A DNA stretch of 64,000 bases from Treponema sp. Lineage in GTDB: Bacteria; Spirochaetota; Spirochaetia; Treponematales; Treponemataceae. The position numbers and the translations under genes are program-made. The stretch covers positions 1-64,000 of the forward strand of contig JAEEYO010000054.1 in the NCBI GenBank assembly GCA_016288205.1. The letters are read 5' to 3'. The stretch's first letter is position 1. Every line of letters starts with the position of its first letter. Below the pieces are notes generated by a model. That model searched no databases. It was not told the DNA's origin and saw only the letters and a list, made by a program, of their open reading frames with translations. This document shows positions 14,155-22,165 of the stretch, one piece after another.

Positions 14155-14715
14155 TTAATTCTTTTTCTTTTCCTCTTCCAGAATATTAATAAACTGGTAA
14201 ATCGTACTGTAAGTTTTATTGGCTTCTGTTTTATCTTTCATATTATTAACTGCATTCATGCGATTATCCCAGAGAGAATCCTGTTGTTTGAATGTCAGCA
14301 ATCCCTTTTTGTACTGTCCCCATCCGTCAATAGCAGATAATTGCTTTACACATGCATCACTTGTTAATTCTGTTTCAGGAGTTTCCTGATAATGTGAGAT
14401 AAACCAAATTTCAATACATGGCTTACTAATCAACATAATACCGCCACAATTTCTGAGCGCACCCAATACTTCCGGAACATCACCATCGTACATGAGGAAA
14501 GTCCTTATTTCAGACAGACTTCCTGATAATTCCTCTTTATGTTTTTTGATTAATCGTGAAGAAATATTGTTCCCAACAATCTTAGAGACAATTTTGATTG
14601 GAAGCCTGTATCGTTGTTTTAGAAAGTTGACGTAAACTTCTTCTGTTTCTCCTTCACAGATAACAAGAAATTGAGGCCTCATCTTTCTGGGATTTGATTT
14701 TCTTTCTCTTCCCAT
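14155..14715 (-). CDS. rloB: RloB/AbiLii-like TOPRIM-type protein
   Basis: 186 residues. The N-terminal part FLVICEGETEEVYVNFLKQR and the YDGD element (about residue 71) form the TOPRIM-like acidic site of RloB proteins. SKPCIEIWFISHYQ is the conserved S-N/K-P-C-x-E-x-W-x-x-x-H-y motif of the family. It is translated right behind the ATPase gene: the RloA stop (14718-14720) is two bases before ATG 14715, and GGGAG lies inside the end of rloA. RloA/RloB pairs correspond to AbiLi/AbiLii of abortive-infection systems, so this is probably the toxic nuclease-like effector held by the ATPase. No restriction-modification genes are adjacent. Confidence 0.82.
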   Translation of the reverse strand: MGRERKSNPRKMRPQFLVICEGETEEVYVNFLKQRYRLPIKIVSKIVGNNISSRLIKKHKEELSGSLSEIRTFLMYDGDVPEVLGALRNCGGIMLISKPCIEIWFISHYQETPETELTSDACVKQLSAIDGWGQYKKGLLTFKQQDSLWDNRMNAVNNMKDKTEANKTYSTIYQFINILEEEKKKN

Positions 14716-14717
14716 GT

Positions 14718-15989
14718 CTATTCTCCCAGAAGATTTTTGATCACACTTATAGAAGAATTGATGTAAGGCACAGCGTCAAACCTTCCCTCAAGATAACATT
14801 TCTCAGCATCCATATTTTCCCTAAAATCTTTAAAGTCAAACAAAGAATAGACTTCTGTTGAACCATCATCCTTTTTGTTTGTGAAAAGAATCTGATCCCT
14901 TCTCATCTTTTTGATATCCAGAAGATTTGTGTTATGACTGGTAAAAAGGAATTGAGCGGATTTTGACGCATTTACCATGTCAAGAATAAACTGGGCAAGT
15001 TCTGTGTGAAGGCTGGCATCAAATTCATCAAGAATAAGGGTCTTTCCGTTCTTGCATACATCTAGAAGTAAAAGAAGAAGTGAAAAAATCTGTATTGTGC
15101 CTGCTGATTCTTCTGCTTCAAGATGGAATGTCACGTCAGGATTTCTTTTGTGCTTGGTGTAAAAATTGATTTCTTCTACAGTTTGTTGCATTGGTATAGA
15201 TGGAATTGTGCTGGAACCAACTTGTAAGTAAGCAGGAGGAACGGCATAGATTTTTTTTTCAATTTTTACATCAATATTTACAATGTCGCTGTCTGCCATT
15301 TTTAAGGCTTGCAAGATCAATTCTTTATTCTGCTTAAAAAGTTCAACTGCATATTTTCCGGAAAGTTGTGGAAGACCAATCAGAAGTTCTGTTCTAAAAT
15401 AATTGTAGATGGTCTTGGCAATCTTTCTGTCCATTTGACTTGCCCTGCTTATAAACAAGGTGTTTGTTCCTGTGCTTTGAGCAACATCAAGAGGCTTTAC
15501 AAACTGCCCTTCTCCAAAACTATAGATGTCTGTCTTGGCCGGACCTTTAGATTCGTCTCTTGTAAATATTTTAGCCCTTCGTTTTCCTGGATAATAATAT
15601 AACTCTTCTGTAAGGATTTCATTTCTCGTAAGGGTAAAGGAATACTCATACTCAATCCCATCTGTGATAAAATCAATAAAAAAAGAACTGGGCTTCTTGA
15701 AATACCCATCGAATTTGAATGGCATATAATTAAATTTAACGCCTTCATTGTATAGATGTGACTGAAGGATTATTTGTATACAGCTTGCGGCGGCTTTTAA
15801 AATACTGGATTTACCAGAGGCATTCGGCCCAAAGAGTCCCAAAACTTTTATGAGTGTGTCATCATTAAAAGAGAAAACATTATCTGCCAGCATCTTAACA
15901 CCAGCAGTATTGATGTTGCCGGCTTTAAAATCAATACAAACTTCATCCTTTATAGAAAAGAAGTTACTAAATCTCATTTCCAACAGCAT
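14718..15989 (-). CDS. rloA: RloA/AbiLi-like AAA ATPase (OLD/ABC class)
   Basis: 423 residues of the SMC/ABC-like AAA_15/AAA_21 class. Walker A is GLFGPNASGKSS near residue 50. The signature region ESAGTIQIFSLLLLLLD and Walker B TLILDEFDASLHTEL follow in the C-terminal half, with the SHNTNLLD D-loop/His element after it. ATG 15989 is chosen over the GTG at 15995 because AGAGGTG (15993-15999) would be the ribosome binding site. A promoter lies at 16019-16047. It is paired with rloB downstream and likely senses phage or DNA damage while controlling the RloB partner. Confidence 0.85.
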   Translation of the reverse strand: MLLEMRFSNFFSIKDEVCIDFKAGNINTAGVKMLADNVFSFNDDTLIKVLGLFGPNASGKSSILKAAASCIQIILQSHLYNEGVKFNYMPFKFDGYFKKPSSFFIDFITDGIEYEYSFTLTRNEILTEELYYYPGKRRAKIFTRDESKGPAKTDIYSFGEGQFVKPLDVAQSTGTNTLFISRASQMDRKIAKTIYNYFRTELLIGLPQLSGKYAVELFKQNKELILQALKMADSDIVNIDVKIEKKIYAVPPAYLQVGSSTIPSIPMQQTVEEINFYTKHKRNPDVTFHLEAEESAGTIQIFSLLLLLLDVCKNGKTLILDEFDASLHTELAQFILDMVNASKSAQFLFTSHNTNLLDIKKMRRDQILFTNKKDDGSTEVYSLFDFKDFRENMDAEKCYLEGRFDAVPYINSSISVIKNLLGE

Positions 15990-16018
15990 AAACACCTCTA
16001 ATTTGTAGGATTGCTACA

Positions 16019-16902: not shown

Positions 16903-16975
16903 TAGCTGGGGCAGGACTCGAACCTGCGGCCTCCGGGTTATGAGCCCGACGAGCTGCCAACTGCTCTACCCAGCG
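16903..16975 (-). tRNA. tRNA-fMet (CAT), initiator
   Basis: A complete cloverleaf of 73 bases. The acceptor CGCTGGG pairs with CCCAGC, leaving C1 opposite U72 unpaired, which is the initiator-type mismatch at the first pair. The anticodon arm is TCGGG-CTCATAA-CCCGG: anticodon CAT with the three consecutive G-C pairs that define initiator tRNA. The T arm is GCAGG-TTCGAGT-CCTGC. The usual bacterial mismatch is C1-A72, so U72 is unusual. CCA is not encoded. Its terminator follows at once, and the 3' end is duplicated about 154 bases away. Confidence 0.9.
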
Positions 16976-17101: not shown

Positions 17102-18007
17102 TCAGCTTTTCTTTGTTGTTTTCTTAGCCGAAGCAGAAGTCTTTTTTGTAGTCGTTGTCTTTTTGGCGGCAGGCTTTTTCTCCACAGCTTTCTTAGTTGT
17201 GGTCTTTGCCTTTGTGGTCTTCTCTGCAGCAGCCTTTTTAGTGGTCGCTTTGGCAGTGGAAGCCTTTGTTTTTGTTGTCGTGGACTTGGCGGCGGCTTTC
17301 TTTACCGTTGAGGCAGACTTGGTTGTAGCTGCCTTTGCCTTTGTGGTCTTGCCAGCTGTAGTCTTAGTCGTTTTTGCGGTGCTTGATTTCGCCGTAGTCT
17401 TTCTTGTTCCGGTCTTTGAGGTCTTTTCCTCAGCAGAAGCGGACTTTTTGGTCGTAGACTTTGTGGCGGCAGTTTTTTTGTTTGTGGATCCTGGCTTTCT
17501 GCCGGGCTTCTTCTTGGCAACTGGTTCCTCAGAATCCTTTTCTGCGGCGCTCTTTCTTGTACGCCTTGTTGTCGTGGAAGATGTGCTTGATTTTGTTGAT
17601 GCGCGCTTTCTTGTCGCAGGTTTCTTCTCAGAGTCATCGGAATCAGCAAGAGCAGAAACTACCTTTTTCTCAACGGCGGCAAGCTTTGTATCAATATCGG
17701 AAGTGAACAAATCAGTCTTCGGTTCCACGGTATCCTGTGGAGCATCATCATCAAACAGCTTGTCAATGGCGGGATACTGCGAAGAAAGCTCTGACTTTGC
17801 CTCATCCACAGAGTCTGACACGGAAATTGCAATCTCAGCGGCAGTGTCAATGGCTTCCTCAGCGGCCTCAACAGTCTCTTCTGCGGCGCTTACAGCAGCG
17901 GTAGTCGCATTGGAGGTCTTTCCAAACACGGTCTGTTCCGGGAGAGTGGGTTCTGCATCCTCTTTTTTTCCTCCGAAAAGACCCTTAAACAAATCCTTTA
18001 ATCCCAT
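17102..18007 (-). CDS. Possible separate product: histone-H1-like basic protein from an internal start
   Basis: ATG 18007, in frame with the PrsW-like gene, is preceded by AAAAAGGAG about 11 bases upstream. The 301-residue product would start MGLKDLFKGLFGGKKEDAEP, a typical independent N-terminus, and continue into the Lys/Ala/Thr-rich tail with KPGRKPGS, an AT-hook-like element. Alternative reading: the two were once separate genes and the stop of the first was lost. No stop codon separates them, so a full fusion is also made in principle. Confidence concerns the existence of the second product. Confidence 0.45.
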   Translation of the reverse strand: MGLKDLFKGLFGGKKEDAEPTLPEQTVFGKTSNATTAAVSAAEETVEAAEEAIDTAAEIAISVSDSVDEAKSELSSQYPAIDKLFDDDAPQDTVEPKTDLFTSDIDTKLAAVEKKVVSALADSDDSEKKPATRKRASTKSSTSSTTTRRTRKSAAEKDSEEPVAKKKPGRKPGSTNKKTAATKSTTKKSASAEEKTSKTGTRKTTAKSSTAKTTKTTAGKTTKAKAATTKSASTVKKAAAKSTTTKTKASTAKATTKKAAAEKTTKAKTTTKKAVEKKPAAKKTTTTKKTSASAKKTTKKS

Positions 18008-18676
18008 CTTTAGATTTTCTCCTTTTTCTACTATATTATTATCATTTCCTATCACAGATAATTTTTCAACGTCATCCTTCAAGAATGCGTATCTCAACCG
18101 GCACTCCAGAATGGCAATCACAATCACCGCAAAGGCGAAATAATGCCTGAAATCCTTGAAGCCGGCAAAATAATTATACACCCCATGGAACAAAACTGCA
18201 AACACAAAAGGCGCGATATGCAGATTTTTTTTCCTCACGGAGTACACGAAAAGCCCCGAAAGCCCGCAGCACAGTATGTGAATCAGCGTCGCCGCATACC
18301 TCCAGAGCAGCACGTTCCGCCTGACCAGATAGATGAAAGCCTCAAAGCATCCGAGCGCCATTCCGCAGATGACGGCATAGGCAAAAAAAACGGGCAAAGG
18401 TGTTTTCTTCGCTGGCAGCAAAAAAAGGAGGAGCATCTTGATTCCTTCCTCAATCAGCGCGAGCAAAATGCACTTCACCAGCATGCCGAGCAAAGTGTTG
18501 TCAGGAAGCCTGGTACCGACAAACATCAGGAAAATCTCTGCCGGAATCAGAGCAAGCAAGCCCAGAACACAAGCCCAAAGCCCCGTCAATTTCCTAAACC
18601 CCTGCACCAACAAGGCGAGACACAAATAAAGTGCCACCAAAGGTATGAAACATAGCGCAAGAGACAAATACGTCAT
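17102..18676 (-). CDS. PrsW-like intramembrane protease fused to histone-H1-like Lys/Ala/Thr tail
   Basis: The first 220 residues are hydrophobic with about eight membrane segments and the PrsW glutamate motif LIEEGIKMLLLFLL, plus conserved histidines in LIHILCCG and LFHGVYNYF. From about residue 224 the chain changes completely: MGLKDLFKGLFGGKK, an Ala/Glu-rich part, then about 170 residues of K-T-T/K-A-A-x repeats like histone H1-type DNA-binding tails. Start ATG 18676 is chosen because TTGAAA-17-TATTCT ends six bases before it. A methionine at the junction has its own AGGAG (see 17102-18007), so two products are possible. Intact PrsW proteins normally end near the junction. The joint of a membrane protease and a basic tail is odd. 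Confidence 0.65.
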   Translation of the reverse strand: MTYLSLALCFIPLVALYLCLALLVQGFRKLTGLWACVLGLLALIPAEIFLMFVGTRLPDNTLLGMLVKCILLALIEEGIKMLLLFLLPAKKTPLPVFFAYAVICGMALGCFEAFIYLVRRNVLLWRYAATLIHILCCGLSGLFVYSVRKKNLHIAPFVFAVLFHGVYNYFAGFKDFRHYFAFAVIVIAILECRLRYAFLKDDVEKLSVIGNDNNIVEKGENLKMGLKDLFKGLFGGKKEDAEPTLPEQTVFGKTSNATTAAVSAAEETVEAAEEAIDTAAEIAISVSDSVDEAKSELSSQYPAIDKLFDDDAPQDTVEPKTDLFTSDIDTKLAAVEKKVVSALADSDDSEKKPATRKRASTKSSTSSTTTRRTRKSAAEKDSEEPVAKKKPGRKPGSTNKKTAATKSTTKKSASAEEKTSKTGTRKTTAKSSTAKTTKTTAGKTTKAKAATTKSASTVKKAAAKSTTTKTKASTAKATTKKAAAEKTTKAKTTTKKAVEKKPAAKKTTTTKKTSASAKKTTKKS

Positions 18677-18682
18677 ATACAT

Positions 18683-18711
18683 AGAATAACGCATATTTTA
18701 CGAAATTTCAA
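18683..18711 (-). promoter_or_regulatory. Leaderless promoter of the PrsW-like gene
   Basis: On the minus strand TTGAAA (18706-18711), 17 bases, TATTCT (18683-18688), then six bases to ATG 18676. Confidence 0.55.
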
Positions 18712-18812: not shown

Positions 18813-18863
18813 ATGACAACAAAAAAAATCACATTTCCTCCGCAAAGCTTTTCACAAATATTC

Positions 18864-18893
18864 TTGACAAAAAATACAAAAAAGAAATACAAT
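18864..18893 (+). promoter_or_regulatory. Leaderless promoter of brnTA
   Basis: TTGACA (18864-18869), 18 bases, TACAAT (18888-18893), six bases to ATG 18900. Confidence 0.65.
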
Positions 18894-18899
18894 CTAAAT

Positions 18900-19202
18900 A
18901 TGGAAGAATTCGAATGGCATGAAAAAAAGGCCGCTTCAAACATTAAGAAGCACGATGGCTTAAGCTTTGAAACAGCGGAAGAAGTTTTCGAAGACCCATT
19001 CGCAATCGAAAAATACGATGAAATCAATTCGACCATAGAAGAAGACAGGTTCATCGTACTTGGAAGGATAAGAAATCAGCTTGTAGTGGTTACTGTTTAC
19101 ACGCCTAAAAACGGCAAGAGAAGAATTATTTCCGCCCGTTATGCAACATCAAATGAAAGGAGGTTATATTATGGACAATTTACAGGAAATTATGGCAATT
19201 AA
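18900..19202 (+). CDS. brnT: BrnT-family toxin
   Basis: 100 residues with the family layout: FEWHEKKAASNIKKHDGLSF at the front (W-D/H-x-x-K-x-x-x-N-x-x-K-H), then ETAEEVFEDP, RFIVLGRIRNQLVVVTVYT and RRIISARYATSNERRLYY, the R-x-I-S-A-R-x-A-x-x-x-E-R-x-x-Y motif. BrnT is a ribonuclease toxin that stops translation. ATG 18900 is preferred over longer frames because the promoter ends six bases before it; there is no ribosome binding site. The antitoxin gene overlaps its 3' end. Confidence 0.88.
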   Translation: MEEFEWHEKKAASNIKKHDGLSFETAEEVFEDPFAIEKYDEINSTIEEDRFIVLGRIRNQLVVVTVYTPKNGKRRIISARYATSNERRLYYGQFTGNYGN

Positions 19203-19431
19203 CGAGACGGATGCCATCTCCGACAGCGAAATTGATTTATCAGAGATTCCAGAAATAAAAAGCCTCGAAGGATTCAAGCCCATTCACCCGGAATACTACA
19301 AGCCTGTTCGCGAACAAGTTTCCATCAGATTTAATAAAGTTCTAGTAGATCATTTCAGAACATTCGGCAAAGGATGGCAGACAAAAGTCAATGATTTTTT
19401 AATGCAAGAATATATTAACGGAAGAATTTGA
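19171..19431 (+). CDS. brnA: BrnA-family antitoxin
   Basis: 86 residues from ATG 19171, preceded by AAAGGAGG. It overlaps brnT by 32 bases. The C-terminal part VSIRFNKVLVDHFRTFGKGWQ and KVNDFLMQEYI resembles the BrnA/DUF4415 ribbon-helix-helix region, which binds the promoter and neutralises BrnT. The operon promoter is leaderless for the toxin, while the antitoxin has a strong ribosome binding site, so translation favours BrnA. Confidence 0.82.
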   Translation: MDNLQEIMAINETDAISDSEIDLSEIPEIKSLEGFKPIHPEYYKPVREQVSIRFNKVLVDHFRTFGKGWQTKVNDFLMQEYINGRI

Positions 19432-21865: not shown

Positions 21866-22165
21866 ATGGAAGGAAACTGCGTGGCACCAGAGAAATTGTA
21901 TTTGGTTTTTGACAGGAAAAAGATCCGGCTTGGCGACTTGACCTTTATAGGACGCGACGGCAGCAATGACATCATCCTCGAAGATCCTTGTGTAAGCCGC
22001 AAGCATTGTTTTATCGGAAAGGTTCTCGGAAAATATGTCATTGAAGATCTGGGAAGCAAAAACGGAACTTTTGTGAACGGAAGATACCTGGAGAAAGATG
22101 ACATGGCAATTCTCGACCCGGGGAATGAGATCACAATGGGCGAAACATATTTTTCAATAGGATGA
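21866..22165 (+). CDS. Stand-alone FHA domain protein
   Basis: 99 residues that are essentially one FHA domain: IGRDGSNDIILEDPCVSRKHC is the phosphothreonine-binding start (G-R and S-R-x-H), and DLGSKNGTFVNGRYL is the typical N-G-T motif. FHA domains bind phosphorylated threonine peptides. No Ser/Thr kinase is in the window. AAGGAGG sits before ATG 21866. It could be the second gene of a transcript with 21519-21803. Confidence 0.85.
   Translation: MEGNCVAPEKLYLVFDRKKIRLGDLTFIGRDGSNDIILEDPCVSRKHCFIGKVLGKYVIEDLGSKNGTFVNGRYLEKDDMAILDPGNEITMGETYFSIG

Follow-up and report, generated by a model that had tools for sequence, protein, structure and literature searches.

The 64,000-nt stretch of Treponema sp. 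DNA analyzed here (the window) contains a minus-strand open frame (18676 to 17102) in which a PrsW-type membrane protease is joined to a 301-residue, histone H1-like tail, with a second start codon at the junction. The locus raises the question whether the basic tail belongs to a membrane protease, whether two adjacent genes have lost the stop codon between them, or whether both a fused protein and a free tail are made, as a sequence-only reading had asked. Counted from the first ATG, the frame covers 17102..18694 and encodes 530 amino acids without an internal stop. The earlier choice of 18676 as the start of the head (stop codon at 17104-17102) was retained over 18694 because the starts of relatives line up with this methionine and because a promoter-like site ends 6 nt upstream, its -10-like box lying 12 nt before the ATG. 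The in-frame fusion with an internal start was likewise recovered: the frame is open through the junction, and AGGAG precedes the in-frame ATG at 18007 by 11 nt.

Table 1. Coordinates of the PrsW-tail gene and its predicted signals within the window.
Feature	Position	Strand	Basis or remark
PrsW-type head and linker	18008..18676	-	7 predicted TM helices; translated from ATG 18676
Linker from last TM helix to internal start, 27 codons	18008..18088	-	Junction reading, dN/dS
Internal Shine-Dalgarno AGGAG, 11-nt spacer	18019..18023	-	GGAG here in 13/13, AGGAG in 12/13
Internal in-frame ATG (MGLKD...)	18005..18007	-	Junction reading across relatives
Tail ORF, 301 aa and stop; predicted free product	17102..18007	-	ORF, charge profile
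Acidic, Thr-rich part of tail, net -15, with PEQTVFG	17648..17947	-	Charge profile
H1-like Lys/Ala/Thr/Ser part of tail, net +43	17105..17647	-	Charge profile
-35-like TTGAAA	18706..18711	-	17-nt spacer to TATTCT, 9/12 matches; same placement in relatives
-10-like TATTCT, 12 nt before ATG 18676	18683..18688	-	Promoter consensus, relatives
Intrinsic terminator directly after stop codon	17059..17085	-	11-pair stem, then TTTTTT

The upstream neighbor is BrnT-like, part of a BrnT toxin/BrnA antitoxin pair at 18813-19428 (+), and is divergent from the PrsW-tail gene, which is therefore probably monocistronic. Directly downstream lies a tRNA-Met gene (16903-16975, minus strand); in many relatives a tRNA-Met gene also follows a tail-less PrsW gene, so that the tail sits between PrsW and the tRNA. 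Elsewhere in the window, an RloB-like gene adjoins an AAA_21 ATPase gene (14158-15995, minus strand), a pairing that occurs in phage-defense islands.

By its motifs, the head is predicted to be a PrsW-type intramembrane protease with proteolytic activity. The PrsW family motif EExxK (PMC4602095) was found in TM3 of 152 of 154 heads from the genus, with E82, E83 and K86 invariant in the alignment. All 154 possess HxxxD/N in TM6 (H170 and N174 in the window), and the conserved histidine of TM5 corresponds to H139 in the window's head. The profile PF13367 matched seven of seven heads tested (best E 2.6e-14) and gave the window's head 18.5 bits, the cut-off being 23.5. A PF13367 search of the window's genome returned a weak fragment elsewhere only and missed this head, showing that the family search is insensitive here. 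There was no match in an NCBIfam search, a sequence search against solved structures gave two chance-level matches only, and Foldseek reached a best E of 0.06, none being below 0.001. An AlphaFold2 model from five sequences has a mean pLDDT of 58.9 and shows a disordered tail behind seven helices, with blocks of the head mostly at 60-90 and values <50 from about residue 182. The top matches in VIA-align were gamma-secretase APH-1 and a chain of the multipass translocon (Z 12.8-14.9), the next, unrelated structures scoring 8.5. In this model the head has the fold of the superfamily in which PrsW is grouped with CAAX proteases and APH-1 (PMC4602095). It is like the PrsW (PF13367) family in EExxK, the TM5 histidine and HxxxN, with a fold nearest to APH-1.

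From the charges of the loops, we infer that the C-terminus faces the cytoplasm. Loops 1, 3 and 5 and the C-terminal stretch contain on average 1.9, 2.3, 2.8 and 2.0 Lys and Arg residues, and loops 2 and 6 only 0.5 and 0.8; loop 4 is the exception, as it is also basic (mean 2.27) and does not fit this topology.

The observation that the two halves differ in composition holds, with 20% Leu and 5% Lys in the head and 20% Lys, 19% Thr, 17% Ala and 11% Ser in the tail. The tail is, however, not uniformly H1-like: its residues 1-20 are neutral, 21-120 acidic and 121-301 strongly basic. The profile of the chlamydial protein HC2 (PF07382) did not match the window's tail and gave 17.3, 12.4 and 14.0 bits with the tails of three relatives, under the cut-off of 40. 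Because its composition resembles that of AlgP, the tail is a probable ligand of DNA or of some other polyanion: the KPAA domain of AlgP binds DNA and is needed for the spacing of polyphosphate granules, to which AlgP binds as well (PMC9239181). The likeness to AlgP/PhaF and HC2 consists in a disordered, Lys/Ala-rich C-terminal domain and is one of composition only, with no homology claimed. Unlike these proteins, the tail is joined to a membrane protease and has no domain match over the cut-off; it is dominated by Thr and Ser, versus Pro and Ala in the AlgP/PhaF-type KPAA repeats. A phospho-Thr-type motif, [DEKQNS]T[IVLM] (e.g., in PEQTVFG), is modestly enriched in the tails. A small FHA-domain protein is encoded 3 kb from the PrsW-tail gene (21866-22162, plus strand); it is speculative that tail motifs such as PEQTVFG could be FHA ligands if phosphorylated. 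An amphipathic helix at the first residues of the free tail was considered and rejected, with muH not above that of shuffled sequences in most species; it was 0.71 in G085 and G184, with 1-2 of 500 shuffles as high.

We then compared the locus across the genus, where a head profile finds the PrsW head in 183 of 200 genomes. Loci were read for 154 of these 183, leaving out 29; three named records were dropped because their proteins were identical to those of genomes already included. Classes were assigned by hand from the tails, which yielded 13 window-like loci (class A), 13 loci of class B, 14 with other tails of at least 35 amino acids (class C) and 114 with less. The head-bearing open frames of the order are mostly 200-330 amino acids long, and long tails therefore look derived. 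On a midpoint-rooted tree of the 154 heads, class A lies on one side of a branch with an SH-aLRT support of 97, and class B, apart from A, on one side of another (SH-aLRT 98). The 13 species of class A are related and represent about five lineages, not 13 independent cases; the tail of one member (G182) is cut by a contig end.

The 13 species of class B have basic tails rich in Lys, Ala and Ser that start near the last helix, and a DPNKTIEMPKNPAIIIPVKK-like stretch is common to 10 of the 13. Because classes A and B separate on the head tree, the arrangement of PrsW and a basic tail arose at least twice; judged from these sequences, the class B tail is an independent gain and the fusion itself recurs. 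The class B loci are L044-L053, L064, L065 and L045/L041, and further lineages have basic tails of lesser length (e.g., L078, L153, L171).

These comparisons bear directly on the idea that two separate genes recently lost their stop codon, or that the frame results from an assembly or sequencing error. The junction does resemble a gene start, but every one of the 13 class A species has the same open junction, the linker being 13-28 codons long. No orthologue with a stop before the internal methionine, set beforehand as the refuting test, was found among the 154 genomes read. A profile built from 13 rows over the tail's first ~125 residues hit 14 of 200 genomes, namely the 13 fused cases and a weak partial match in G212; these 200 genomes thus yielded no convincing gene for the tail alone. 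The sequence following 157 heads, at least 300 nt long in 145 of them, likewise contained no basic gene that could credibly be a separate tail. An earlier four-row profile had missed six species with divergent tails, all 13 being found with the 13-row profile; the match of the four-row profile in G105 was rejected as a tail gene, being the N-terminus of a frame that we take from its sequence to be an FtsY-like GTPase. A recent stop loss, as the sequence-only reading had considered, was accordingly discarded, and this explanation, error included, is very improbable. Two genes may have fused long ago, in the ancestor of class A.

We next asked how the fused frame evolves. In ten pairs of class A ORFs, which overlap and are not independent, dN/dS was 0.07-0.14 for the head; within the tail it was 0.12-0.32 at the front and 0.07-0.36 at the rear. 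For the linker, six pairs gave 0.14-0.38 and one gave 1.19, the other three having no synonymous changes. The low values indicate that both linker and tail are translated and maintained at the protein level, and that the fused form is under selection. Together with class B, in which a tail is fused without a conserved start at the junction, the dN/dS of linker and tail, mostly 0.07-0.38, supports the proposal that the basic tail is carried by the membrane protease. Linker dS was below head dS in all ten pairs, based on small numbers of changes, which fits constraint at the nucleotide level.

The junction of class A genes also contains an in-frame start codon with a ribosome-binding site inside the longer ORF, conserved according to sequence comparison. 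Each of the 13 species has GGAG 4-13 nt upstream of the junction ATG, and in 11 of them this ATG is the sole one in the ORF with this feature. As background, GGAG stands at this distance upstream of 4 of 685 other in-frame ATGs of PrsW heads (AGGAG of none) and of 19 of 350 in-frame ATGs of the ORFs in the window (AGGAG of 6); 12 of 36 window ORFs have it before a start candidate. The codons GGA-GAN place AGGAG 11 nt before the ATG in 12 of the 13 species. In the remaining one, G195, both signals are kept, as CGGAG at 8 nt, with a linker of 13 codons and differing surroundings. The glycine codon inside the Shine-Dalgarno sequence is GGA throughout class A, compared with 121 of 283 glycine codons in the class A ORFs, and the G-[D/E] before the methionine could partly be conserved as protein. 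In all 13 species the junction has a lower GC content than the ORF and is less structured than the ORF's median segment. Because the window's genome lacks a 16S gene, the anti-Shine-Dalgarno sequence was taken from two other genomes of the genus, in which the 16S 3' end has CCTCC.

The arrangement in class A is unlikely to be accidental because it was kept in 13 related species, and because the Shine-Dalgarno sequence and ATG are retained in all 13, synthesis of both products is favored. We consider it likely that this is one gene with two in-frame starts, giving the fused PrsW protease-tail and a free tail from one mRNA; the use of both starts is inferred from the conserved signals. Alternatively, only the fused protein might be made, its tail serving as a cytoplasmic basic anchor and the apparent Shine-Dalgarno sequence being a by-product of a conserved K-G-[DE] peptide or of a pause in translation once the last membrane helix is complete. 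Class B would agree with this, as it is viable without a conserved GGAG-led start at the junction: none lies within -15 to +80 codons of it in 11 of 13 species, and those of the other two are at differing places. The 11-nt spacer is also long, since the 44 plausible AGGAG-led starts in the loci have a mode of 6 and only four are at 11 (in the window, none of nine). The explanation is nevertheless unlikely, given that the ATG is conserved together with the Shine-Dalgarno sequence in 13 of 13 species and that G195 retains both despite its different spacing, linker and surroundings.

A free tail might also arise by proteolysis, perhaps by self-cleavage of PrsW, the short form then being a cleavage product. 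The active-site motifs are intact, and in polymorphic toxins self-release has been proposed for N-terminal PrsW domains with C-terminal cargo (PMC3482391). No Pfam toxin domain was matched in the tail, however, and cleavage leaves the conserved Shine-Dalgarno sequence and ATG unexplained; we regard it as quite improbable. A separate promoter for the tail was rejected as well, because in class A (13 species) the best site upstream of the junction did not exceed what codon shuffles gave; the window's head holds two promoter-like sites inside.

If two starts on one mRNA are used, the first appears to be of another type than the second. None of the 13 genes of class A and none of the 13 of class B has GGAG within reach of the head start, a test in which the ATG chosen lay inside the head in several rows; the promoter test used all candidate ATGs. 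Of 148 heads with a candidate ATG, 50 have a promoter whose -10 box begins precisely 12 nt upstream of it; at every other offset from -40 to -6 the count is 0-13 of 148. Ten of the 13 class A genes have a -10 at -13 to -11 with at least 8/12 matches and the other three score 7; in class B the box peaks at -14 (10/13). Leaderless-type promoters are thus frequent among PrsW genes of the genus (heads of L003-L172). From the position of the consensus promoter, the PrsW-tail mRNA is probably leaderless or nearly so. In Leptospira interrogans, leaderless mRNAs with transcription starting at or near the AUG are common (PMC5243855); the start position is alike, and here, in another genus, it is deduced from promoter position only.

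In the favored scheme of two starts, a monocistronic mRNA would begin at or within a few nt of AUG 18676. Translation from its 5' end without a Shine-Dalgarno sequence would yield a PrsW-type intramembrane protease with its long basic tail facing the cytoplasm, and the Shine-Dalgarno-led second start at 18007 on the same mRNA would yield a soluble, 301-residue free tail. The fused form may hold the protease near, or hold onto, the nucleoid or a polyanion, and the free tail may bind the same target without the membrane. The full version, in which leaderless initiation gives the tethered protease and Shine-Dalgarno initiation a free H1-like protein, as two modes on one mRNA, is tentative and we give it somewhat less than an even chance. 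If true, the ratio of tethered protease to free tail would change under conditions that favor either mode, and the two could compete for one target.

To our knowledge, conserved in-frame internal starts that yield a separate domain are few. Such starts inside ORFs are an accepted phenomenon in Ribo-seq (PMC11955535), and Cas11b is a C-terminal product whose ATG, possibly led by a Shine-Dalgarno sequence, lies within a longer gene (PMC11899642). The predicted free tail is like Cas11 within cas8 or cas10 in being a C-terminal product of an internal ATG, predicted here from sequence. Unlike there, the outer gene has a start of the leaderless type and encodes a membrane protease, and the predicted inner protein is basic and H1-like. 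PrsW has been described in fusions with PilZ, cyclic-nucleotide-binding, FHA, Zn-ribbon and toxin domains (PMC3482391), and the accessible sections of that paper name none with a Lys-rich disordered tail and its own start signal. We found no description of a PrsW-H1-like tail fusion in the open-licence PMC literature.

The conserved internal start was found here by comparison alone, with a clean test. In many Treponema, this suggests, a basic and possibly chromatin-like protein goes unannotated. The locus links an intramembrane protease to a tail resembling DNA- or polyphosphate-binding proteins and is a natural example of an mRNA that may be subject to both leaderless and Shine-Dalgarno initiation.
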